From Lysinibacillus mangiferihumi (GTDB taxonomy: Bacteria > Bacillota > Bacilli > Bacillales_A > Planococcaceae), in the NCBI RefSeq assembly GCF_003049665.1, contig NZ_PYWM01000013.1, forward strand, positions 62,001 through 126,000: a DNA stretch of 64,000 nucleotides, given 5' to 3'. Shown piece after piece: positions 6,426 through 37,374 of the stretch. Made by a program: the position numbers and the translations under genes. A model generated the notes under the pieces. It saw only the letters and a list, made by a program, of their open reading frames with translations. It did not search any database and was not told the origin of the DNA. Each line of letters begins with the position of its first letter. The stretch's first letter is position 1.

Positions 6426-8654
6426 CTAGTAGAAATTACGACTAGCATTATTTTCATGAATAGCACGAGCTAAGCGAAGTGTTGACACAGCTAAATCAGC
6501 ATAACTTACTTCTGCAGTGGCATTAAAGTTATTTTGTTGTGCATCAATTAACCCCATCGCGCTTGCTAATGCAACATATCCTGTATACGCTGGATCGATA
6601 GTGCTGGCATCTGCGAAGTTTAATTTATAAATATCGCTATGCTTAGCAGCACTTTCTAAACGTAATACATGAATATACCATTCTGCAAGTTCCTGACGAG
6701 TCAATTTTGCATCAACAGCAAATTCATTTGCTGGTTGTAATACGCCCATTCTTACTGCTTGTTCAACCACTCCGTATAACGGATGTTTCGCATCAATATT
6801 ACTAAAGGATTGAGGGGCTTCTTCTTCATTTCCATATGTTCCAAAATGTCCATATGTCAATGATTTAAGCATAATTTTCAATGCCTCACCTTTTGTCACA
6901 GATGTATCAGCATTAAAGCTTGCTGGATCTTTTACTTCCAACACATTTTGAGCTAATAAGTAATTTAGTTCCTTTGCAGCAGTTGGGTGTGAAATTTGAG
7001 GTTTACTATTTGAATCATCAACGCTATTTACCCATTTGCCAGTTGTTGCATCAATTTGATTGAAAAGGCTACCTTCATAAGTCGGTGCATACACTAAATC
7101 ATAGTGGTTATTATCCTCTTTATCCTGCTTTGTATACTGCAGTTTTAGCTTTAATGCATTACTAAATGTTTCCTTCACCTTATCAGCTGATACAGCATTA
7201 CTTACAGCCGGCCAGTTATCAATTTTCTGTTGGTTAATTGTTAATGAGCGCAATGAACCATCTGATCCGATGCTTACATAAATTTCATCGCCAACAACAG
7301 CAATTCCATTGACTACGCGTGGGAAAGAGAAGCTATATTGCTTGCCATAACTATCATAAGCAAAATCATCTAAAGGTTTTGCATAGTTATGAATATAAGA
7401 CGGAGCCCACTCTTTTAAGTAGTCGATTGCTTTTGCCATCGCAGCATCTTTAGTAATTGTTTCTGCTTTTTTATCTGATACCATGAAGTCTCTACGTACA
7501 TCATAGAACTGAGTAATTTCACCAGTTGCCTTGTTAATTTCAAGTGACGCACCAGTGCCACCACTATCATAATTATACATATAGTTTACAGAGTAGAGTG
7601 TGTCACCGTTTTCATTTTCTCTTTCATCAATCATCTCAATTTGCAACTTCGCCTTTTCAGGGTCCACTTTTAAGAAGGACTTTGCAAATTCCTCCACTTC
7701 TTCAAGTGTCATGCCGCTTTTTCTCGGAGCAAGTTGTTCTGAAGAAAGCTTTTCAACACCCTTTGCTTTTGGTGCTTGCGATACGAAACCATTCGCTGTT
7801 TGCCATTGACCAGTTAATGCATTTACACCATAGAAGCTTGATGTTGGCACATACACTAGTTTGACATTGCGTTTTTCAGATTGGAAATTATAGTCTACAT
7901 AATAACGTAGCTCAACAGCAAAGTTCTCACGAATTTGTGCAAGAACATCTTCCTCACTCTTTTTCTTTTCTATACTATCGAACGTTGCTTTAGAAGATAC
8001 ATCTGAATTGCGATATACTTGTACAACTTCTCCATTAGCAAGCACGCCGATAGAAATGAAATGGTCACTAATTGCCACACCGTTTTGTGTTGGTGCATAC
8101 GTATAGGAATAAGTAATTGGTTCTGATAATGGACGAGTGAAATTATAACCGTAAAGATAATCATATTCATCTTCTTGCAACTTATAATTTGCTGTATTCG
8201 GGAATTTCTTTAAGAAATCCTGTGCAATTTTTTGTGCATCTTCTTTTGAATATTTTGCAGGATAGAGCGCATCTGCAACATTCGCTGGCTGGTAATAGAA
8301 GTTTTCTAGCTCTAAATTATCGCCCTTAAATGTGATGCTACCATAGATATCTTTTCCATTCACCGTTTTATGGAAGCTCAATTCATAACGAACCGTTTTA
8401 TCATCGTTATAATAATGGCCACTTCCAGTATGGAAATCATTATCTGTTAAAAAATTGAACTTTTCTGGGAAAAGCTCACGTAATTTTTTAATAAGTGTGC
8501 TTTTTGTTACTTTTGTTTCAGTAGAGGCTACTTGAATCTCAATTCTTTCTGGAGCATCCTTAACATTAGCAGAAGCTTGTGCCATTGGAGAAAGAACCCC
8601 GACAGAAAATGCAGTAGACGTTAAAATAATTCCTAACTTTTTAAATTTACCCAA
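6426..8654 (-). CDS. Secreted YcdB/YcdC-repeat protein with C-terminal SLH domains
   Basis: Exported surface protein of 742 residues. A Sec signal peptide (MGKFKKLGIILTSTAFSVGVLS..AQASA) is followed by repeated PepSY/YcdB-type units of about 120 residues. In these, a YDDKTVRYELSFHKTVNGKDIYGSITF-like sheet alternates with DAQKIAQDFLKKFPN-like helices; copies start near 35, 165, 330 and 440. From about 590 to the end come S-layer homology repeats (KGEALKIMLKSL, AVRMGVLQPANEF, LTRQELAEWYIHVLRL, GYVALASAMGLIDAQQ), which anchor proteins to pyruvylated cell-wall polymer. B. subtilis YcdB/YcdC have the repeat part but lack SLH domains. The role may be protease-inhibitor-like (PepSY), which is inference only. 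Confidence 0.85.
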   Translation of the reverse strand: MGKFKKLGIILTSTAFSVGVLSPMAQASANVKDAPERIEIQVASTETKVTKSTLIKKLRELFPEKFNFLTDNDFHTGSGHYYNDDKTVRYELSFHKTVNGKDIYGSITFKGDNLELENFYYQPANVADALYPAKYSKEDAQKIAQDFLKKFPNTANYKLQEDEYDYLYGYNFTRPLSEPITYSYTYAPTQNGVAISDHFISIGVLANGEVVQVYRNSDVSSKATFDSIEKKKSEEDVLAQIRENFAVELRYYVDYNFQSEKRNVKLVYVPTSSFYGVNALTGQWQTANGFVSQAPKAKGVEKLSSEQLAPRKSGMTLEEVEEFAKSFLKVDPEKAKLQIEMIDERENENGDTLYSVNYMYNYDSGGTGASLEINKATGEITQFYDVRRDFMVSDKKAETITKDAAMAKAIDYLKEWAPSYIHNYAKPLDDFAYDSYGKQYSFSFPRVVNGIAVVGDEIYVSIGSDGSLRSLTINQQKIDNWPAVSNAVSADKVKETFSNALKLKLQYTKQDKEDNNHYDLVYAPTYEGSLFNQIDATTGKWVNSVDDSNSKPQISHPTAAKELNYLLAQNVLEVKDPASFNADTSVTKGEALKIMLKSLTYGHFGTYGNEEEAPQSFSNIDAKHPLYGVVEQAVRMGVLQPANEFAVDAKLTRQELAEWYIHVLRLESAAKHSDIYKLNFADASTIDPAYTGYVALASAMGLIDAQQNNFNATAEVSYADLAVSTLRLARAIHENNASRNFY

Positions 8655-27041: not shown

Positions 27042-27794
27042 TTATTTACAACTAGAACACATAGCTGCTTGAACGATTGGTGTACTAAACTGCCATGGAA
27101 CTCGTTGAGAACAATCACAAAGATTTGAATCGCAAAGACAATTCTTATAACTTACTCCATAGGTATGGTAGCAACAGTCATGGGATTTACAGCAAAAGTC
27201 CAATGAGTTAACAGCACCGGCAGTAGATTTACATGCTGAAGAACCACCGCAGCCTTCACCACACCACATATATCCGCCTGGCATACAACCTGAATACCAA
27301 GCTGCAGTTTTTACTTCTTCATTTAATAGCATCCCTGGTACATAGTTTTCATCAATCGGGAATTGTTCTTCTTGAAGTTTATTCGACTCTATTGCTAAAG
27401 CAGCAACTTCATGTGTGTGTGAACTAATTAAAGATGACACATATTCATCGTGGTATGATCTAAAGTGAGTAACTTTAATTTCGTCTTCTTCAACTTTAAA
27501 GATTTCACCAATGAAAAAGTCATTTGTTGTACTCTCATCGCCATTTAAATGACGGATAGTATATCGGATTTTCACATTTTCATTGATTTTAAGATACACC
27601 ACCTTTGCAGAATAAACATCCTCACCTTTAAGGACATCGAACTTAATTGCTTGAATAACCTCTGAATTCTCATCAAACTCAAATTTTTCCGAATTATTCA
27701 TCTCTTGGATTAAATTACGGAATTTAGTTTTTTCAGAAAATGTACTAATTAACGTTTTTACTTCTTCGTTATTCAAATAGTTACCTACTAACAT
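27042..27794 (-). CDS. Phospholipase A2-like cysteine-rich protein with long leader
   Basis: Protein of 250 residues from ATG 27794, with GAGGGGG about 8 nt upstream. A longer frame to 27869 has no ribosome site. Residues 1-165 are acidic and Cys-free, with no Sec signal. The last 85 residues contain about 15 Cys and the secreted phospholipase A2 signature LDFCCKSHDCCY (His205-Asp206). The preceding loop YMWCGEGCGG is suited to calcium binding, and a CLCDSNLCDC segment follows. This fits an inactive precursor with a disulphide-rich PLA2 domain released by proteolysis near the ..TAAWYSGC junction. A halocin C8-like cysteine-rich bacteriocin precursor is an alternative plan. It is divergent from an ECF sigma operon. 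The fold assignment is good; function and export route are inferred. Confidence 0.75.
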   Translation of the reverse strand: MLVGNYLNNEEVKTLISTFSEKTKFRNLIQEMNNSEKFEFDENSEVIQAIKFDVLKGEDVYSAKVVYLKINENVKIRYTIRHLNGDESTTNDFFIGEIFKVEEDEIKVTHFRSYHDEYVSSLISSHTHEVAALAIESNKLQEEQFPIDENYVPGMLLNEEVKTAAWYSGCMPGGYMWCGEGCGGSSACKSTAGAVNSLDFCCKSHDCCYHTYGVSYKNCLCDSNLCDCSQRVPWQFSTPIVQAAMCSSCK

Positions 27795-27831: not shown

Positions 27832-27989
27832 TACAATATATAAAGAATGATAGCGCTGATAAATAACAACCTTTAATACAGAAATAGAAAAGGTATATAA
27901 TGTAGACACAACGCAATTAGAAAAAAATGTATATTAATTAATTGTTTACCTTTTTTGGTTTCGTTCGTCTTATAGTTAGGAGGTTATTC

Positions 27990-28502
27990 ATGAATGAGTT
28001 CGATTTTGGGGAGCTGTTGTTCCAATCTTTAAATAAGAACAAAAAATACCTAATTAACATGGGAGCGAGTGTGGAGGACGCTGAAGATGTTATACAAGAT
28101 ACTGCCTATAAATTCCTAACCTATATTGATTCTGTGGACATTAGTAATATTGACGGTTGGCTTTTTCGTGTATCTGTTAATAGTTATTACGACTTATACC
28201 GTAAAAGAAAAAGACAAAGCAATATTTTGATGAAGTTTAATGTAAAAGAGTTATTCGAGGAGGTAACACCTGAAAAAGCTGCACTACAAATGGAATTAAA
28301 AAGAGATATTCACAAGATATTAGAAATAATAAAACCGAAACATGCGGAATTTTTAATTTTAAAGTACAGTACAGGGTTAAAAATTGAAGACATTGCACAC
28401 TTGTATGAGATGAAAGTCAATTCTGTAAAGACAATTCTTCATCGAGCAAGAAAACAATTTATTGAAGAATATGGGAGGATTCATAATGACAAAGGAGAAT
28501 AA
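27990..28502 (+). CDS. ECF-family sigma factor
   Basis: Sigma factor of 170 residues, ATG 27990 with TAGGAGG 7 nt upstream. Region 2 (about 10-70) is KNKKYLINMGASVEDAEDVIQDTAYKFL then GWLFRVSVNSYYDLYRKRKRQ. Region 4 (about 105-160) is IIKPKHAEFLILKYSTGLKIEDIAHLYEMKVNSVKTILHRARKQF. It overlaps the anti-sigma gene by 17 nt. A TATAAT at 27896 lies about 90 nt before the start. It is transcribed divergently from the phospholipase-like gene, an obvious candidate target. Confidence 0.9.
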   Translation: MNEFDFGELLFQSLNKNKKYLINMGASVEDAEDVIQDTAYKFLTYIDSVDISNIDGWLFRVSVNSYYDLYRKRKRQSNILMKFNVKELFEEVTPEKAALQMELKRDIHKILEIIKPKHAEFLILKYSTGLKIEDIAHLYEMKVNSVKTILHRARKQFIEEYGRIHNDKGE

Positions 28503-29445
28503 CACTTCGGGATTTCAAAATTTAGCAAAAAAAGCAAAAAGGAAATCTCAAATACGTATGGGCATCATTGCATTTATTGTTTGTATTTTAGTATTAAGTA
28601 CCTTTCAGTTTGTGGGTAATATAGTTATTTCAAAGACGATTAATAAAGAAAGCGCAGTTGATACTATGTGGAACAACATACATGGAGCCAATATTACACA
28701 ACAAGGAACAGTTACGAATTATACCCTTTTCTCTGCAACAACCAAAACTGAATTCAATAAAATAGTAGGAGATGTTGCTATACCCTGGGTTCCGATTGAA
28801 AAAAGATATTCATTGTTCGGTACTTCAAAAAGAATAACTACTAACGGTCCAGTCGGTAGTGGACATATTAATGATCAAAGAATACCAATGTATTTCAATG
28901 GAGAAAGGGTCATTGAATTTATACATCCAAAAGTAAATTTTAATGATATTGCGGATGATAAAGAAATTATTTCTGATATAAAAGACGATAAGGTAATAGA
29001 GGTAGCTTTATCTTTTGATAAGGCTTATTCATTACTAGAAACTCAGAATACTTTTGGTAAAAGCTTATCATGGTTTTGGGTGAACACTTATGAAGCAGCA
29101 GATATTAATGATTTTAACCAGCTAAACGTAGATACCGGAAAAAATGTAACAATCTCGGGTGATGACGTTATCGGTTTTTCCTCCAATAAAACTAATGATC
29201 TTGATAATGGATCAGCACTTTTTATAAGTAATATTAAACAACTCTCAAAAGAAGGCAGTTATAAAGAAATAGCTAATCGAATTGTCAGCAATATAACTGC
29301 TACTTCTAATGAAAAAGAACTGTCATCTGCTAATCTCGAAATTATTGGTGTAGTTGTAACAGGTTTTCCATCGGAAATTTTAGAATTAATTGAATCCCCT
29401 ATGGTAAGAGCTGTATTTTTAGGATCGACTGTTGATAAATATTAA
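28486..29445 (+). CDS. Anti-sigma factor with sigma-regulator N and C domains
   Basis: Single-pass membrane protein of 319 residues, ATG 28486 with GGGAGGA 7 nt upstream. A basic cytoplasmic N-terminus (NLAKKAKRKSQIRMG) leads into a TM helix at about 27-48 (IIAFIVCILVLSTFQFVGNIV). The large extracytoplasmic part follows (AVDTMWNNIHGANITQQGTVTNYTLFSATT.., then YSLLETQNTFGKSLSWFWVNTYEA and a late EIIGVVVTGFPSEIL). This is the YhdL-like plan of Bacillus anti-sigma-M type regulators (Sigma_reg_N / Sigma_reg_C). It overlaps the sigma gene, as expected for a sigma/anti-sigma pair. Confidence 0.85.
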   Translation: MTKENNTSGFQNLAKKAKRKSQIRMGIIAFIVCILVLSTFQFVGNIVISKTINKESAVDTMWNNIHGANITQQGTVTNYTLFSATTKTEFNKIVGDVAIPWVPIEKRYSLFGTSKRITTNGPVGSGHINDQRIPMYFNGERVIEFIHPKVNFNDIADDKEIISDIKDDKVIEVALSFDKAYSLLETQNTFGKSLSWFWVNTYEAADINDFNQLNVDTGKNVTISGDDVIGFSSNKTNDLDNGSALFISNIKQLSKEGSYKEIANRIVSNITATSNEKELSSANLEIIGVVVTGFPSEILELIESPMVRAVFLGSTVDKY

Positions 29446-30202: not shown

Positions 30203-30832
30203 TTATATTATTTTTCTTTCGATAGTACGAACATTAACATATGACAAATAGAGACTTACTGTTATAAGTAACATACTAGAAATTGCATAAAAAACTATTT
30301 CTCTAAAAGTGAAGTTAAAGTCAAAGAAAAACATATGCGGCCACAGAAACACGTCTCCTAAAGTTAGCAATTCTGTTGCGATATACAAAACAATTATCAT
30401 AAAAGGTGTTTCAATATTTTTAAAAAATATTGCTAGTAACAACCCTAATGAGGAAATTAATAAAGCTTGACTAATCAACAAGATCAGCAATTTAAATATA
30501 CTTACATCTGGGAGTATTACATAAAATGTGGCCACTATTAGGGCAAGCATTATTATGAAAATTGACTCAAATTTAATAAAATTCAGAATGAGATTGCGTG
30601 GATAACATAGTAATAAAATTTCTTCTGATTGATTTTGATATAACTCATATACTAGATAAATAGACCACCAAGCTGAAAATGGTACAAAAACAGTTTGAAG
30701 AAATATTAATAGTTGTAATTCATATTGTTCTGCTGGCAAAAAGAATAGAGAACAAAAAACAACTAAAAAAATAATAATAGGAATGTAGAAATTTAAACCC
30801 ATGTTTTTTACTTCAAATTTAAATTGGTCCAT
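30203..30832 (-). CDS. ABC-2 type transporter permease
   Basis: Membrane protein of 209 residues. The start is ATG 30832, with GGAGGT 7 nt upstream inside the end of the ATPase gene; the TTG five codons earlier is less likely. About six TM segments can be seen (around 17-35, 46-66, 88-106, 115-137, 143-160 and 180-202), as in ABC-2 membrane subunits. It follows the ATPase gene with a few-nt spacing and completes a transporter with it and with the 686-residue membrane protein. In this context it could provide export of, or self-protection from, the secreted peptide encoded upstream. The substrate is not shown. Confidence 0.75.
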   Translation of the reverse strand: MDQFKFEVKNMGLNFYIPIIIFLVVFCSLFFLPAEQYELQLLIFLQTVFVPFSAWWSIYLVYELYQNQSEEILLLCYPRNLILNFIKFESIFIIMLALIVATFYVILPDVSIFKLLILLISQALLISSLGLLLAIFFKNIETPFMIIVLYIATELLTLGDVFLWPHMFFFDFNFTFREIVFYAISSMLLITVSLYLSYVNVRTIERKII

Positions 30833-30837
30833 TTTTT

Positions 30838-31704
30838 CTACCTCCAACCATTAATGATTGATAAGTAACCATCAATAAGCGTAGCGTTTAAAGGAGTAGC
30901 ATTAGATGGTTTATTTTTAGACAATACCCTTACATCTAAAATGTTGAAACCGCGTTGCTGAATATCTATAACAGTATATAATTTGAATGTTTCTGACAAT
31001 TCGTTTTCGTGAATTTGAATGCTCCAAACAAAACCATCAGATGATTTAGCAATTTCTTCTGGAGTACCTTCAGCTAATACGCTACCTTCTTTGATAATAC
31101 CTAACTTTGTACATAAGAATTCAACATCTTCTACAATATGAGAGGATATTATAATGGTTTTGTCCTTTGACAATTCTCTTAATAGATTTCTAAATCTTAT
31201 GCGTTCAAGAATATCTAGACCGGAAGTAGGTTCGTCTATAATAAGAATACTAGGGTTCGTTAGAAAAACTTGTGCAATTCCTAAACGTTTTCTCATTCCG
31301 CCAGATAACTTTGATACTTTTTGTTTTTTAGCATCGACTAAATTAACTTGCTCCAACACCGTTGTAATTCTCTCTTTTCGTAATTGAGAATCAGCTATTC
31401 CCTTTAATAAAGCAATATGATTTAAACAATCATACACTGTAGCCTTTGGGTACAAATCAAAATCTTGAGGTAAATAACCAATTCCGTTACGAATTGTTTT
31501 TAAATCTGTAGAATGTAAATCATCGTTTTCAACTATAATTTTACCTTCATCAACAGAGATTAGCCCCGCCAGGACTCTCATCAATGTAGTTTTACCAGCT
31601 CCATTTGGTCCTAATAGTCCGTAAATACCTTCAATTTCTAGAGAAACTTTTTGTAATGTTTTTTTCCCTTTATATGTTTTTGTAATATTTTGAACATTTA
31701 TCAT
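30838..31704 (-). CDS. ABC transporter ATP-binding protein
   Basis: Nucleotide-binding subunit of 288 residues. Walker A is LLGPNGAGKTTLMRVL (near 33-40), Q-loop GYLPQDFDLYP, signature KLSGGMRKRLGIAQ (near 135), Walker B ILIIDEPTSGLD and switch His in TIIISSHIVEDVEFL. It belongs to the BcrA/CcmA-like group that pairs with ABC-2 permeases in antibiotic peptide export and immunity and in YtrB-type systems. The C-terminal about 70 residues are an unassigned accessory domain. It sits between the large membrane protein upstream (14-nt gap) and the small permease downstream in one operon. Confidence 0.92.
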   Translation of the reverse strand: MINVQNITKTYKGKKTLQKVSLEIEGIYGLLGPNGAGKTTLMRVLAGLISVDEGKIIVENDDLHSTDLKTIRNGIGYLPQDFDLYPKATVYDCLNHIALLKGIADSQLRKERITTVLEQVNLVDAKKQKVSKLSGGMRKRLGIAQVFLTNPSILIIDEPTSGLDILERIRFRNLLRELSKDKTIIISSHIVEDVEFLCTKLGIIKEGSVLAEGTPEEIAKSSDGFVWSIQIHENELSETFKLYTVIDIQQRGFNILDVRVLSKNKPSNATPLNATLIDGYLSIINGWR

Positions 31705-31718
31705 AGCTCTATTCCTCT

Positions 31719-33779
31719 CTATCTATATTTTTTCACCATTTCACTTACGTCGTTCCATGTGACTTTTTCTGATTGTAGAAGTTTACTCCAATCAAGCAAT
31801 ATTTTTTCTATAGTTGAATCAGATTTTGACGATAGCAAAGCAGAGATGTCCGAAATTATCTCTTTATCTTCATCTGAGGTATTAGCTAATACTTCTCCCA
31901 ACCAATAGTCTTTTTCTGAATACCGCTGTTCTTTTACACCTGTTTTCTCATTGAGATAATGTCCTGCTAAAGCAGAAAAGAGAATAGAAATATTATCATT
32001 TTGATAAATGACACCGTTATTTTTCCACAAAAGTGCTCCTAATATTTGATATGGAATTAAATGTTCAAGTCGTTTAAATATCGTTTCATCATGATGTTCA
32101 TAAGGATTAATAAGAATTGTTAGTTGTTCTTTTTCTTGATACCACATTAATTCAGAGGGTAATATATCATTTGCTCCTATAGCTGGTATTAGTAGTATTT
32201 TTTTCGGTAGTGATACCCCTTCTATCTTGAAGATTCTTTTAATTTGCTCAATGTTTTTTTCAAGTTGAATTAAATAAGAATCTATGAATTTTATACTATT
32301 TTCCCAAGTTATAGGGTAAAGTATTTTATAATTGTTTATTTGGTCATATTTCAACTCTCCATAAATTAAGTAAATACCATTTTTACTTTCACCTTTATAT
32401 TCACCTTCACGAACTTTTTCCAAGTTAGTAAATACTTCTTGATTCCCTTTGTAATTTAAAACATAATCAATATCTTGTTGTGGCTGAGTAGGTAATCTAT
32501 GATTTGAGTTATAAGTATCTTTCATCGAAGGATTATTATTTTTTAAAGGAATCCACGCAAAGTAAAATGGTAAATAGGCAAACTCATTATTTGCATCCAT
32601 ATAAGGTGAGGAAATACCACTGTATATGAATTTAAGTTTTTTTGTTTCTTCCTTTAAATTAACTTTTATAAAGTCTCCCTCTTGTTTAAAATCAATTGCA
32701 TTATTAAGTTCGTCCATAATCTTATTTACTTTAAACCCATGATACAAATTAAAATATTTAATTCCCTGTTCTTGTTGTTGAAAATACAACTCTACTGCAG
32801 CATCTAATTTTTTATTGATTGCTAAATAAATATCATATTTTTCAACATCGTAATCTAACCATATATTCATTGGATTATATCTATTTTCTGCATAATAATT
32901 TAGTTCATCAGCATTCCGTTGGTTGAATAGTGTTGGATTTATTTTAGATTCCATATATATATAATTCGTAGAAACAAATAGTATTAAGGCAACTAACAGT
33001 AAATTGATCAATATCTTTAATGACTTCTGAATATGACTTTTCAGTACAACAACGATTAAAATTATTGTGAGTAACAACACAATCCAACTTAATTTATTTA
33101 TCAAGTCTTCTTTCGTGAAAACAAATCCACTAAAAGCATGATAGGACATTATAGGGTTTGGGACTCCTAAATGAAAAAAACCAGGGACATAATCGAAACC
33201 TAGTAAACGAAATAAATTATCACTAAAATAAACATTCATAGGAGAAATAAGTAACCATATACCAAATAGGATGGAGATGCTTATTTTTTTTCTTGAAGTT
33301 AGGCCAACAAGTACACCTATTAATGAACTTATAACTGCAGGAACAAACCAATATATAAAAACAAAGAATATAGAATCTATATAAAAATCTGAAAAAACGT
33401 ATCCGGATAACACATAAACTAACATAAATAATATTATTGCAAAGATACAGAATACAATGTTTGATAAGAGTATAAATAAATAGTTGCTCGCAATTTTTAT
33501 ATAGCAACTTTTCGGTATCGTAAGGAATAACTCTTTTGCAACTTTTACACTCTCTACTTTAATGGAAAAGTATCCTAATATCATAAAAATAAGCATATAT
33601 CCTTGAATCAAATACGAAGATAACTGCAACATATTACCAGGATTAGTGATTTCAGAGGAGGAATAAGTATAAATTATGACTCCTAAATATAATAAAGCTA
33701 TTACGACAGATATAATGTATATTGGATTTCTAAAGTTTAACTTGCTGAAAAAACATACGGAATTTATTAACTTCTTCAA
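31719..33779 (-). CDS. Large ABC-type membrane protein with extracytoplasmic domain
   Basis: Protein of 686 residues, TTG start with GAGGAG 9 nt upstream. Six TM segments at about 17-265 resemble an ABC-2 permease. TM7 at about 262-280 is followed by about 400 hydrophilic residues predicted outside. That part has LVPAIGANDILPSELMWYQEKE- and LEHLIPYQILGALLW..LFSALAGHYLNEKTG-like stretches. These recall the order of metallopeptidase M1 helices but lack an HExxH motif. It is encoded directly after the secreted 130-residue protein and before the ABC ATPase. An export or immunity role, or a substrate-capture domain, is inferred; the family is not firmly recognised. Confidence 0.7.
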   Translation of the reverse strand: MKKLINSVCFFSKLNFRNPIYIISVVIALLYLGVIIYTYSSSEITNPGNMLQLSSYLIQGYMLIFMILGYFSIKVESVKVAKELFLTIPKSCYIKIASNYLFILLSNIVFCIFAIILFMLVYVLSGYVFSDFYIDSIFFVFIYWFVPAVISSLIGVLVGLTSRKKISISILFGIWLLISPMNVYFSDNLFRLLGFDYVPGFFHLGVPNPIMSYHAFSGFVFTKEDLINKLSWIVLLLTIILIVVVLKSHIQKSLKILINLLLVALILFVSTNYIYMESKINPTLFNQRNADELNYYAENRYNPMNIWLDYDVEKYDIYLAINKKLDAAVELYFQQQEQGIKYFNLYHGFKVNKIMDELNNAIDFKQEGDFIKVNLKEETKKLKFIYSGISSPYMDANNEFAYLPFYFAWIPLKNNNPSMKDTYNSNHRLPTQPQQDIDYVLNYKGNQEVFTNLEKVREGEYKGESKNGIYLIYGELKYDQINNYKILYPITWENSIKFIDSYLIQLEKNIEQIKRIFKIEGVSLPKKILLIPAIGANDILPSELMWYQEKEQLTILINPYEHHDETIFKRLEHLIPYQILGALLWKNNGVIYQNDNISILFSALAGHYLNEKTGVKEQRYSEKDYWLGEVLANTSDEDKEIISDISALLSSKSDSTIEKILLDWSKLLQSEKVTWNDVSEMVKKYR

Positions 33780-33842: not shown

Positions 33843-34235
33843 TTAATCGGTGATTCTTACTGCACCATAAAGAGCAGTAGTATTATATTCTGTATTAGCA
33901 ACAGCGTAATAAGTAGAGGGATCTGGATAAAAGTTTGTTTTCACTTCTTTTCCAGCTGCTGCATAGCTATTGTGAACGATTGAATCCGGAAGAACAGCAA
34001 CGTATTTTTTTGCATATCCAAAGATTCCGTAAGGACCGCCTCCAGCATTTGTAACTGTCATTTGAGAAGCACCATCGTGAATATTTACTTTGGCCCCTTC
34101 TGCACTTGACGTATAATTTATTAGAGCTGTAGACGATGCAGCAGAGGCGCTAGATGCTAAAGCTCCAAATGCTGCAATACCTAAGATAATTGATTTCATC
34201 TTATTATTTTTTTTTATATTCACAACATCAACCAT
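33843..34235 (-). CDS. Secreted small protein, candidate antimicrobial or signalling peptide
   Basis: Protein of 130 residues with AAGGAGG 6 nt before ATG. After a basic N-terminus comes a Sec signal peptide (MKSIILGIAAFGALASSASA), with cleavage expected around residue 32. The mature about 98 residues are neutral, Tyr/Ala/Thr/Gly-rich and Cys-free (TALINYTSSAEGAKVNI, GGGPYGIFGYAKKYVAVLP, FYPDPSTYYAVAN, closing ALYGAVRITD), which looks like a small beta-sheet protein. It is the first gene of an operon with a three-component ABC transporter and has two perfect palindromes upstream. The plan (Sec-secreted small protein plus ABC genes) is like lactococcin 972-type loci, but sequence similarity to that family is not evident. 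Confidence 0.7.
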   Translation of the reverse strand: MVDVVNIKKNNKMKSIILGIAAFGALASSASAASSTALINYTSSAEGAKVNIHDGASQMTVTNAGGGPYGIFGYAKKYVAVLPDSIVHNSYAAAGKEVKTNFYPDPSTYYAVANTEYNTTALYGAVRITD

Positions 34236-34309: not shown

Positions 34310-34751
34310 TATAGATAGAACTCCTAACTTAGATTTTCACAACCTTTAAGTATTTATAGTTCATGTTCCTTTGTTTACTTTTTTCGTTGAATATTGTTAC
34401 CTTAGGAATACCCGTATTCTCTATATGAATAATACTTTCTCTCCAGTCTTAATTATTTATTTAGTACTTGTTTCAAAAAAAAAGCAGAACAATTGAGTTA
34501 ACAATGTTCATGCTCTATATAAAATTATTGAATTGTTAGCTTGTTGAAATGTAAATTCATGTGAAGTTGAAACTTAAGGCTGCTTTTTCTAAAATAGCTG
34601 TAATAAATGAATAAGAAATTGATGTTTCAGGCTTTTAGTTAGTTTTTTAATTAAAATGTTTTCTAGTTTATCTTTATTAAATCCCATAACTTTAGAAATC
34701 ACATCGTGGGCTATGAAAATTAAATAAAATTTATTTTATAAAATACAACTA
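34310..34751. other. AT-rich leader region upstream of the secreted-peptide gene
   Basis: About 440 nt with no convincing gene. ATGTTCCTTTGTTTACTTTT at 34363-34382 resembles the units repeated before the sigO-like gene (35941-36025). The remainder shows no clear hairpin or family match to me. Confidence 0.4.
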
Positions 34752-34822
34752 AGGTGACACTCGGGATCGAACCGAGGATAAAGGTTTTGCAGACCTCTGC
34801 CTTACCCCTTGGCTATGCCACC
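34752..34822 (-). tRNA. tRNA-Cys (anticodon GCA)
   Basis: A complete cloverleaf on the minus strand: acceptor GGTGGCA / TGTCACC, D arm GCC..GGC, anticodon stem GAGGT / ACCTT around CTGCAAA (anticodon GCA) and T arm CTCGG TTCGATC CCGAG. Discriminator U73, typical of Cys tRNA, is present. CCA is not encoded. It is isolated between the secreted-peptide gene and the RsoA-like gene, inside the accessory block. Confidence 0.93.
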
Positions 34823-34892: not shown

Positions 34893-35129
34893 TCATGGAT
34901 TGCTAAAGCGATTTTTCATTTCCCAGAATCCCGGTACAGAATGAACATCGTATTTCTTTATTGTTTTAATAAGTATAATGGTTAAATCCTGACGTAAGTC
35001 TTCTCTATAAATCGGATGTGTTTGATAAAGACAATTTTTTAATTTAGGTTCAAAAAACTGTATTACATCTAATAAAGCCGTATCATCATATTTTGATTTT
35101 TCTACTAAGGCAACCAATTCTTTAGACAT
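34893..35129 (-). CDS. RsoA-like co-sigma protein (sigma region 2-like)
   Basis: Protein of 78 residues, ATG 6 nt after the stop of the YvrJ-like gene. The sequence LVALVEKSKYDDTALLDVIQ then FEPKLKNCLYQTHPIYREDLRQDLTIILIKTIKKY has the pattern of a sigma region 2 / helix-turn-helix module (acidic REDLRQDL core-binding helix). The length matches B. subtilis RsoA (YvrHa, about 79 residues), which works with SigO, itself lacking region 2, as a split sigma factor. Third in an operon with the SigO-like and YvrJ-like genes, as in that system. Assignment is by architecture, length and context. Confidence 0.7.
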   Translation of the reverse strand: MSKELVALVEKSKYDDTALLDVIQFFEPKLKNCLYQTHPIYREDLRQDLTIILIKTIKKYDVHSVPGFWEMKNRFSNP

Positions 35130-35135
35130 TTATTT

Positions 35136-35300
35136 TCAATCCCTTCTTAAATCTTTTATAACTTCTGTCAAATGTTTAATACTTGTTTCAAGATTTTCTA
35201 TTTTCTTTTCGAATCTAATAAATAGATATATCGTTATTGAAATAGGAAATCCAAAATTGCCGATTATCGATATCCATTCTGGTGTTTCTGAGAACAGCAT
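35136..35300 (-). CDS. YvrJ-family small membrane protein
   Basis: A 54-residue protein. ATG at 35300 overlaps the TAA of the sigO-like gene (TAATG), with GGGGGG upstream. The sequence MLFSETPEWISIIGNFGFPI then SITIYLFIRFEKKIENLETS has one TM helix preceded by the GNFGFP motif and followed by a charged coiled tail. This is the pattern of the YvrJ family, whose B. subtilis member lies beside sigO-rsoA. Its function is unknown; phage-type relatives look holin-like. Translational coupling implies it is made together with the sigma factor. Confidence 0.78.
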   Translation of the reverse strand: MLFSETPEWISIIGNFGFPISITIYLFIRFEKKIENLETSIKHLTEVIKDLRRD

Positions 35301-35920
35301 TAAATTCCCCCCTTTTTATCCTTATGAGTTTCGATGTATTCACGTATATTTTTCAATGCTTTTTTATGAGTCTTTGATACCGCTTGTTGCGATATATTTA
35401 ATAGCTGTCCGATTTCTGTATCACTGAATCCTTTTATATAAACTAAATTAATAATTTGTTTTTGTTTTTCTGTTAATGAATATAAAGCATCATTCATTAA
35501 TGGACAGGTTACATGTTCATTAATTTCATCTTCTAAGACAATCTCATCAAGAATTAAATAACTTTCTTCAGCAGCTAATAAATCTAAAAATGTTTCCTCA
35601 CCTCCATCGGTATTAATTGGTGCGTTTAAAGTAGAAGTAAATCTTGACTGTATAACTTTTAATCGCTTGTCGTAATTTATTGAATTAAATTTAAGTGTTG
35701 TAGAAATATGAGAAATAAATCTGATTTTAAAATAAAAATGTTTAAATAATATATCTAATTCTTTCATATTCTCAGGAGTAGGATTTGAAATTGTTTTCAT
35801 GTACATTTCTTTATTAATTGGTATTCTGAGAAAAGAAATCACCAAATCATTATTTAATAACTCAGGATTTTCCATTTCAAATTTTTTGATTTCTTCTTCA
35901 TTCCATTCATTTTTCAGCAA
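35300..35920 (-). CDS. SigO-like sigma factor lacking region 2
   Basis: Protein of 206 residues, TTG start with AAAGGGGG about 8 nt upstream (an ATG 4 nt before the TTG is out of frame). The N-terminal about 70 residues are acidic and helical. The middle part (FKHFYFKIRFISHISTTLKF then NSINYDKR) resembles the sequence linking to region 3. The C-terminus is a clear sigma region 4: LYSLTEKQKQIINLVYIKGFSDTEIGQLLNISQQAVSKTHKKALKNIREYI. Region 2, needed for -10 melting, is absent and would be supplied by the RsoA-like protein two genes on. The plan equals B. subtilis SigO (YvrI). It is preceded by three tandem repeat units. Confidence 0.75.
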   Translation of the reverse strand: MLKNEWNEEEIKKFEMENPELLNNDLVISFLRIPINKEMYMKTISNPTPENMKELDILFKHFYFKIRFISHISTTLKFNSINYDKRLKVIQSRFTSTLNAPINTDGGEETFLDLLAAEESYLILDEIVLEDEINEHVTCPLMNDALYSLTEKQKQIINLVYIKGFSDTEIGQLLNISQQAVSKTHKKALKNIREYIETHKDKKGGI

Positions 35921-35940: not shown

Positions 35941-36025
35941 AAACATATGTTCTTATTTATTTAAAAAAAAGAGCATATGTTCTTGTTTATAGTTAAAAAA
36001 AAGAGCGTACATCCTTCTTTATAGA
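35941..36025. repeat. Three tandem about 30-bp units upstream of the sigO-like gene
   Basis: Units begin near 35943, 35973 and 36005 with the pattern (G/A)CATATGTTCTT(G/A)TTTA followed by runs of 8 A. The third is diverged (GCGTACATCCTTCTTTATAG). A related ATGTTC..TGTTTA site lies before the secreted-peptide gene at 34363. They lie 20-105 nt upstream of the sigma gene and could be regulator or promoter sites. Confidence 0.6.
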
Positions 36026-36083: not shown

Positions 36084-37235
36084 TCATTTAAATGGTTGAC
36101 ATAAATTTTTAATATGCATAGCTGCAGAAGCGGATTCTTGAATTAATGATATTAAAAATTCCCGTTCATCTTCTGTCGAATTTTCTTTCAAGCATTGTGT
36201 AAAGAAGGCTTGCGACCTTCGAGCTTCACAGAAACACTTTAATAGCAATGATTGATCTAATGTGTTTTCAAATTGTTCACTAGAATCATCTTCTATACCA
36301 ACGTCAATAGATAGATTAAGAATTGAGATTGCTTCTTCGTAATCCCCAATTAGTACTCTAGTAGTGTGCTGCATTAAATACTTAAATAAGTCCGATTCTG
36401 TAGGCCTTGAGTTTGTTAAGTTTTCATACTTATTGATTAATAACGCTAAGGCACCTGTAACATGAGGTACGGCCATAGAAGTACCTGATAAATTTGTAAA
36501 ATCTCCATTTAAAAAAGTAGATTTAATAGAAACACCTGGAGCATAAATATCAACTTGTTTATTAGTATTAGAGAAATTTGCAACTCTGTTATTTTTATCT
36601 ACAGCACCCACTGCAATCACTTCCTCGTAACCAGCTGGATAAGAGTATTCAGCAGTAAAAAAATTGTCATCCCCTTCATTGCCAGATGCTACAACAACTG
36701 CTATATCACTTTTAATTGCTTGTTTTATGGCATTATGTAGACTGTCTTTAGATGTTCTTAATCCTAATGACATAGATATAATGTCTACACGTTCATTATT
36801 TAAACCTCTCCAATTAATAGCGTAATTAATTGCCTTTACCAATGAATCAACATTTCCCACCCCATTGCTTTCCAATACTTTTAAAACCAGTAAACTTACT
36901 TCGGGCGCTACCCCTACAATGCCTGTATCATTAAATGAAGCTCCTATTATTCCAGCTACATGTGTACCATGACCATCTAAATCATCAAAGATAGTAACAT
37001 CTCCATTAAATTCTTTTGTGAAATTATACCCACCAATAAGGCGATCCTTTAAGTCTATATGGTGGCTGTTACAACCCGTATCTAATATTGCAACAACTAC
37101 CCCCTTACCTTTATATCCTTGCACCCAAAAGTTTTTAGCGTTAATACTAGTGATATTATTAGTTATCTCATCATTCATCTGCTCTTCCTCTAAAAATCTA
37201 GGCACGGCTAATAATGTAATCTCATTATCCTTCAT
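36084..37235 (-). CDS. Subtilisin-like serine protease (S8), intracellular type
   Basis: Peptidase of 383 residues. The catalytic triad is intact: Asp in VVAILDTGCNSHH (near 52), His in DGHGTHVAGIIG (near 90) and Ser in NLSGTSMAVPHVTGALAL (near 255), with oxyanion Asn in VVVASGNEGD. No Sec signal or long propeptide is seen; it starts MKDNEITLLAVPRFLEEEQM, as intracellular subtilisins do (IspA-like short N-terminal extension). A C-terminal extension of about 90 acidic, helical residues with CFCEARRS and HIKNLC is unusual. It is first in the minus-strand block leading to the SigO-like operon. It could process a regulator or the phospholipase-like precursor, which is speculation. Confidence 0.88.
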   Translation of the reverse strand: MKDNEITLLAVPRFLEEEQMNDEITNNITSINAKNFWVQGYKGKGVVVAILDTGCNSHHIDLKDRLIGGYNFTKEFNGDVTIFDDLDGHGTHVAGIIGASFNDTGIVGVAPEVSLLVLKVLESNGVGNVDSLVKAINYAINWRGLNNERVDIISMSLGLRTSKDSLHNAIKQAIKSDIAVVVASGNEGDDNFFTAEYSYPAGYEEVIAVGAVDKNNRVANFSNTNKQVDIYAPGVSIKSTFLNGDFTNLSGTSMAVPHVTGALALLINKYENLTNSRPTESDLFKYLMQHTTRVLIGDYEEAISILNLSIDVGIEDDSSEQFENTLDQSLLLKCFCEARRSQAFFTQCLKENSTEDEREFLISLIQESASAAMHIKNLCQPFK

Positions 37236-37374
37236 TATCCAACACCTCCTGTTTACTTTGTAATATACATAGAATAAGGAATGTAAAATTTCACAACCTA
37301 GAAAAATTAAAATGTAAAATTAATTGTGGAAATCGTTAATTAACCTAGCATGTGAACTATAGTTTCTACATTTA

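Follow-up and report, generated by a model that had tools for sequence, protein, structure and literature searches.

A SigO-RsoA-like split sigma factor of Lysinibacillus mangiferihumi in a candidate SOS-controlled module with a tRNA-Cys and a cysteine-rich phospholipase A2-like gene

Introduction

In Bacillus subtilis, sigma regions 4 and 2 reside on separate proteins, SigO and RsoA (YvrI-YvrHa), and YvrJ and the sigma factor itself are among the targets, according to the cited portion of PMC8103513. The literature that we found on two-subunit sigma factors contained only one with a studied regulon. In the UviA-UviB/BCN5 system of Clostridium perfringens plasmids, a bacteriocin under SOS induction is accompanied by a putative sigma factor and a plasmid LexA-binding site; UviA differs in being a single sigma protein with regions 2.4 and 4.2 and in serving another cargo, and the description of the system in the cited portion mentions neither a tRNA-Cys nor a glutaredoxin (PMC4459074). 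A search for literature on YvrJ together with LexA returned nothing. By analogy, the logic nearest to that proposed here would be that of UviA-UviB and that of megacin A-216. The latter is reportedly a plasmid-borne, UV-inducible bacteriocin of Bacillus megaterium with similarity to phospholipase A2, and it is likened to the present module by this description, not by sequence. Our search for literature on megacin together with phospholipase A2 found none; if the published megacin A-216 region has a split sigma factor or a tRNA-Cys, the novelty of the present findings falls. Megacins are described as large bacteriocins with enzymatic activity (PMC6510442, cited in part).

The window analyzed here is a stretch of 64,000 nucleotides from the draft genome of Lysinibacillus mangiferihumi. 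Compared with SigO-RsoA of B. subtilis, taken by description and not by sequence, its split-sigma locus differs in gene order and has LexA-type boxes. Its neighbors are a protease gene, a peptide/ABC operon, a cysteine-rich phospholipase A2 (PLA2)-like gene and a tRNA-Cys, and the oxdC-type loci L133 and L134 yielded no copy of its GGTTGT-type motif.

Results

The split sigma factor

Three open reading frames had been claimed by a first-pass annotation at 34893-35920, and all three were present at these coordinates, on the minus strand. The 206-residue SigO-like protein (35300..35920, minus strand, TTG start) matched Pfam Sigma70_r4 with 1.3e-11, and region 2 was not found by Pfam, in agreement with the claim of a sigma protein possessing region 4 without region 2. 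The assignment of the 54-residue membrane peptide (35136..35300, minus strand) to the YvrJ family was borne out by Pfam PF12841 (2e-17, over cut-off); the peptide also matched PHROG 4898, holin, with 6.5e-5. As for the 78-residue protein (34893..35129, minus strand), which had been called region 2-like, the claim held in part: the protein is related to RsoA in sequence but lies far below the RsoA equivalog cut-off. In NCBIfam it reached 45 bits with PRK14082 (7.1e-12, cut-off 86) and 30.3 bits with RsoA NF041489 (3.2e-7, cut-off 100); thus, it is RsoA-related and not an equivalog. In Pfam, HTH_16 exceeded its cut-off (7.7e-6), and Sigma70_r2 matched weakly (0.23). The AlphaFold model of the protein consists of four helices (mean pLDDT 82.8). 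Alignment with a region 2 profile of four ECF sigma factors placed it correctly with a weak match (p 0.058), and a sequence search among solved structures yielded no relative. The RsoA-type match is more than chance, because the profile (13 rows) recurs in 65 of the 398 genomes sampled from the class and in 36 of 145 genera. Taken together, the sequence comparisons support the view that the window encodes a SigO-RsoA-like split sigma factor. The resemblance to the B. subtilis plan that had been pointed out thus stood for the division into two proteins but not for the order of the genes.

Protease and peptide/ABC genes

A neighborhood different from that of B. subtilis had also been noted. The protease and the secreted-peptide/ABC genes are indeed present, but they are not incidental, since the module is recurrent. 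The 383-residue S8 protease (36084..37235, minus strand; PF00082, 7.5e-60) resembles intracellular subtilisins, which were its best solved relatives (6e-81, solved chains only). Its last 68 residues form a C-terminal cysteine domain, CT (36087..36290, minus strand), which matched standalone open reading frames of 56-65 residues with E values from 3e-10 to 1e-8. In relatives, these standalone genes are located after YvrJ and before S8; on a Priestia plasmid, CT is a separate gene after S8; and in the window, in L131 and in plasmid pGeo12b it is fused to S8. As CT is fused in some loci and standalone in others, it probably works together with the protease. UGA read-through by the extra tRNA-Cys, joining S8 to CT, was considered and set aside because TAA TAA stands between the two genes in L127.

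The peptide operon, also on the minus strand, comprises genes for a 130-residue peptide with a signal-like N terminus as judged by eye (33843..34235), which matched no Pfam family at E 1, a 686-residue membrane-like protein (31719..33779), an ABC transporter ATPase (30838..31704; PF00005, 3.9e-34) and a membrane-like protein that is likely a permease (30203..30847). Homologs of the 130-residue peptide, the 686-residue protein and the likely permease occur in L261 and L262.

A promoter-like motif

The sequence GGTTGT-N18-nYCTWTnTA was spotted by eye in upstream regions and then written as a pattern. Perfect copies in the 5.3-Mb host genome numbered five, all at split-sigma loci: three in the window on the minus strand, one at C57 sigO and one at C87. 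Because three of the five had served to write the pattern, only the copy at 27839 and that of C57 sigO were new. Within the window, the copies before the S8 gene (37266..37298; 24.1 bits in the matrix described below) and before the secreted peptide operon (34312..34344; 24.3 bits) had helped to define both pattern and matrix, while the copy at 27839..27871 (27.5 bits) emerged from the pattern scan, later became a matrix training site and pointed to the cysteine-rich gene at 27042-27794. When up to one mismatch was allowed, 27 and 30 matches were counted on the two strands compared with 23 and 35 when the pattern was reversed, a control that refers to this mismatch level and not to perfect matches alone. 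As the counts were like those of the control, only the five perfect matches were used.

A matrix from nine sites of the host genome was applied to 72 loci of other genomes. It found 58 sites of at least 16 bits versus 0 in the reversed-sequence control, distributed over ten GTDB families. Lower cut-offs gave 69 versus 5 (15 bits), 81 versus 10 (14 bits) and 229 versus 128 (9 bits), and matches below 16 bits were not used. Among the genes downstream of matrix sites were sigO itself, yvrJ, S8, a CT gene and genes encoding glutaredoxins, proteins rich in cysteine and proteins whose start, IDPGHGG, was recognized by eye as amidase-like; two 16-bit matches, in L079 and L223, had no assigned downstream reading frame. 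No site was detected at 11.5 bits or above in L021, L133, L134, L148 and L215, at 12 bits or above in plasmid locus L268, or at 16 bits or above in plasmid loci L266 and L267. It may be that some branches rely on a different -35 sequence.

The cysteine-rich PLA2-like protein

The gene to which the new motif copy pointed (27042..27794, minus strand) encodes a protein of 250 residues with 14 cysteines and a phospholipase A2-like C-terminal domain. A calcium loop and CC..HD.C make up the catalytic signature of secreted phospholipase A2. This signature is present in the aligned window protein, and CG..C and D.CC..HD.C are common to all seven aligned cargo proteins (window plus six others). The window protein did not pass a PLA2 profile (Pfam Phospholip_A2_4, E 0.055), and among four relatives scanned against Pfam only that of L206 passed the PLA2 cut-off (PF00068). 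It is the residue pattern, not the Pfam score, by which we assign the window protein as PLA2-like. Beside the gene, at 27942-29445 on the plus strand, lie genes for an ECF sigma factor and an anti-sigma factor, and Anoxybacillus homologs are likewise placed.

A profile search of genome contigs with three cargo proteins retrieved only Anoxybacillus calidus and Exiguobacterium indicum (G391 and G294); as their proteins were already in the query alignment, the scan added no independent case. With the window protein as the sole query, three plasmid records were matched, and all three carry SigO, RsoA, YvrJ, S8 and glutaredoxin genes; in the window itself, no glutaredoxin gene was found within 5 kb. 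Matches to the shorter L206 protein came from 31 plasmid records, among them Enterococcus (8) and Staphylococcus (5). Both genera are outside the SigO listing, so that the occurrence of PLA2-like genes on plasmids extends beyond the module. For the counts given below, the proteins of L020, L021, L068 and L070, in which the PLA2 pattern is absent, were added to the cysteine-rich cargo by eye. Left out by eye were reading frames of 111-112 residues in L067, L071, L072, L074 and L075 and the matches in L018, L086, L142, L146 and L215; the excluded frames looked zinc-finger-like or unlikely to be genes. The L070-type protein found no match in the plasmid search. Proteins of three loci with tRNA-Cys (L068 7627-8307, L070 7813-8493 and L020 5405-6130) have a hydrophobic cysteine-rich C terminus. 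Presumably, these C termini resemble halocin C8.

LexA-like boxes upstream of sigO

Two LexA-like boxes, each with one mismatch to GAACNNNNGTTC and neither perfect, precede sigO of the window on the minus strand: GAACATATGTTT (35941..35952), about 30 nt upstream, and GAACATATGCTC (35971..35982), about 60 nt upstream. In Firmicutes, the LexA core is GAACn4GTTC, and the form TACGAACATATGTTCGTA has also been reported (PMC2248561, cited in part). Four one-mismatch boxes lie upstream of the host lexA gene. A scan for GAACNNNNGTTC covered the 330 nt preceding each of 67 SigO-family genes from 77 loci; SigO matches beginning after profile position 25 had been excluded. A perfect box was present before 37 of the 67 genes as against 12 of 896 other genes of the same loci (Fisher 7e-38), and with up to one mismatch the numbers were 49 of 67 and 92 of 896 (Fisher 5e-30); these p-values are too small, because many of the loci are related by descent. 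A perfect box occurs in all six plasmid loci and lies less than 100 nt before sigO in five. On pGeo12b, where an IS21 element interrupts sigO, the perfect box precedes the reading frame that holds the initial part of this gene. The scans found neither boxes nor promoter-like motif sites in the oxdC-neighbor loci L133 and L134, and no boxes within 330 nt upstream in the f11 loci with S8 (L148, L216 and L220). As judged by its sequence, sigO of the window carries a candidate LexA box at its promoter and would belong to the SOS regulon.

The accessory tRNA-Cys

A solitary tRNA-Cys gene (GCA anticodon, no encoded CCA; 34752..34822, minus strand) follows the RsoA gene at a distance of 70 nt. Of 75 loci, 10, belonging to four GTDB families (f1, f3, f11 and f42), have an intact tRNA-Cys no more than 5 kb from SigO/RsoA. 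Cysteine-rich cargo was present in seven of these 10 loci and in four of the 65 without the tRNA (cargo and tRNA 7, cargo only 4, tRNA only 3, neither 61; Fisher 1.7e-5), a p-value that depends on partly by-eye choices of cargo and on loci that are not independent. Among the six plasmid loci, four have a tRNA-Cys, and all four contain a PLA2-like gene, which on pGeo12b begins 79 nt after the tRNA. The tRNA-Cys also lies just upstream of a cysteine-rich gene in L153 (twice), in L206 and on a B. subtilis plasmid. In Anoxybacillus, it is found about 10 kb from the RsoA gene, beyond the toxin and ABC genes. No tRNA-Cys was found in 20.7 kb of Exiguobacterium, where the cluster is present, or in 12.6 kb of the Priestia region. 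In L206, a CT-like reading frame shares about 20 nt (2642-2662) with the tRNA-Cys. Pattern and BLAST searches of the host draft genome detected no tRNA-Cys inside a tRNA cluster, possibly owing to an assembly gap.

Discussion

On balance, we favor the interpretation that a two-subunit sigma factor, induced by SOS, controls a megacin-like toxin module which is rich in cysteine and includes a tRNA-Cys of its own. What the sequences show directly are the genes, the motif, the boxes and their repeated co-occurrence; the binding of LexA, the pairing of the sigma factor with the motif and the roles of the proteins and the tRNA are inferred from them. Upon DNA damage, LexA would be released from the sigO promoter. 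SigO, providing region 4, and RsoA, providing the region 2-like part, would join core RNA polymerase in a two-subunit sigma holoenzyme, which is predicted to recognize GGTTGT-N18-nYCTWTnTA promoters and so to switch on three units of the window. The first is the S8 gene, from which transcription may continue into sigO-yvrJ-rsoA-tRNA-Cys and reinforce the switch; the second is the secreted peptide/ABC operon; and the third encodes the cysteine-rich PLA2-like protein. The product would most likely be a toxin of the megacin type that acts on bacteria and is set free under stress. The S8 protease may cut off an N-terminal part of the toxin, YvrJ may help its release, and the accessory tRNA-Cys would aid translation of a protein with 14 cysteines in 250 residues. 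If so, the tRNA gene would be a built-in part of the toxin regulon, and by reserving a tRNA for a single toxin, a mobile module would ensure its own translation in an unusual way.

Alternatively, the tRNA-Cys could be a mere passenger, either an integration target or a decaying extra copy, without a role in the module. Shortened or decayed copies do exist in L069, L073, L079 and, more weakly, L021, with a related copy called tRNA-Tyr in L080; an intact tRNA-Cys is missing from the 5-kb surroundings in 65 of the 75 loci, three tRNA loci have no recognized cysteine-rich cargo, and a solitary tRNA-Cys without SigO or RsoA in the stretch examined occurs in L209-L212. We nevertheless regard the passenger explanation as rather unlikely. 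The gene resides inside the module at varying positions, often on the strand of the cargo and at most some 200 nt ahead of it (L153 twice, L206, L265 and L268), whereas five other inspected tRNA-Cys loci from four genomes sit in tRNA clusters. Moreover, the link with cysteine-rich cargo extends over the four families, further along the Anoxybacillus cluster and over all four tRNA-bearing plasmid loci.

Two other interpretations concern the signal. The locus might, like the SigO regulon of B. subtilis, respond to acid or envelope stress, the cysteine-rich protein then being a secreted enzyme and not an antibacterial toxin. SigO-RsoA of B. subtilis transcribes oxdC-yvrL besides yvrJ and its own gene (PMC8103513), and acid stress and cell-wall antibiotics are tabulated as SigO inducers (PMC10141391; both sources cited in part). 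The LexA-type boxes, the plasmid location and the peptide/ABC operon, however, resemble bacteriocin plasmids such as that with the SOS-induced uviA-uviB-bcn (PMC4459074, cited in part), and we consider a stress regulon of this type unlikely. Still less probable, in our estimation, is that the split sigma factor works as proposed while the GAACNNNNGTTC palindrome serves another regulator or belongs to the sigma factor's own promoter. This idea draws on the fact that the box was identified by its core match alone, as a predicted site, and that many copies are flanked as in TAAGAACATTTGTTCTTA. It is at odds with the agreement of the core and of the form TACGAACATATGTTCGTA with the reported Firmicutes LexA motif (cited portion of PMC2248561), with the similar boxes upstream of the host lexA gene, and with the position of the window boxes, which do not overlap any GGTTGT motif.

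Beyond the window, the favored SOS-controlled scheme leads to a broader proposal, which we advance tentatively and with somewhat less than even confidence. SigO-RsoA-type split sigma factors would be widespread, often SOS-coupled toxin regulators on chromosomes and plasmids of Bacilli, one branch of which uses its own tRNA-Cys for a cysteine-rich phospholipase-like toxin under damage. For the wider split-sigma family, SOS emerges as a possible input, along with a candidate promoter sequence and a cargo, and many small unannotated genes are marked as likely toxin or release genes.

Further split-sigma loci

In the host draft genome (138 contigs, 5.3 Mb), near full-length matches identify five SigO-like genes, and the RsoA profile matches seven times, more often than in any other of the 65 positive genomes of the class. 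Its other loci vary in layout: a SigO/RsoA pair at an apparent prophage end (L018), the order SigO-YvrJ-RsoA (L020), SigO-RsoA with an S8-YvrJ pair opposite (L021), and a SigO/RsoA pair separated by other genes (L022). Placement of YvrJ between SigO and RsoA was found in several other lineages, too. The parts of the module, i.e. the protease, the secreted-peptide/ABC genes, the tRNA-Cys and the cysteine-rich gene 7 kb away, recur wholly or partly in other families and on plasmids. Homologous clusters are present in Anoxybacillus, Exiguobacterium and one Priestia plasmid; A. calidus and E. indicum both have homologs of the S8, SigO, YvrJ, RsoA, 130-residue peptide, 686-residue protein, ABC and permease genes. 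Among the 75 loci, S8 (16 of 75), an intact tRNA-Cys (10 of 75) and the PLA2 motif (7 of 75) are minority traits.

Further features were observed at individual loci. In L120, a second, divergent S8 gene (7434-8351) adjoins SigO-RsoA. The split-sigma loci L143, L149, L221 and L225 encode proteins of about 130-150 residues with a hydrophobic Gly-rich stretch, some of them downstream of the promoter-like motif, which are possible bacteriocins. In L117, L123 and L132, loci with common neighbors, a tRNA-Ser (CGA) lies about 3-4 kb from SigO-RsoA.
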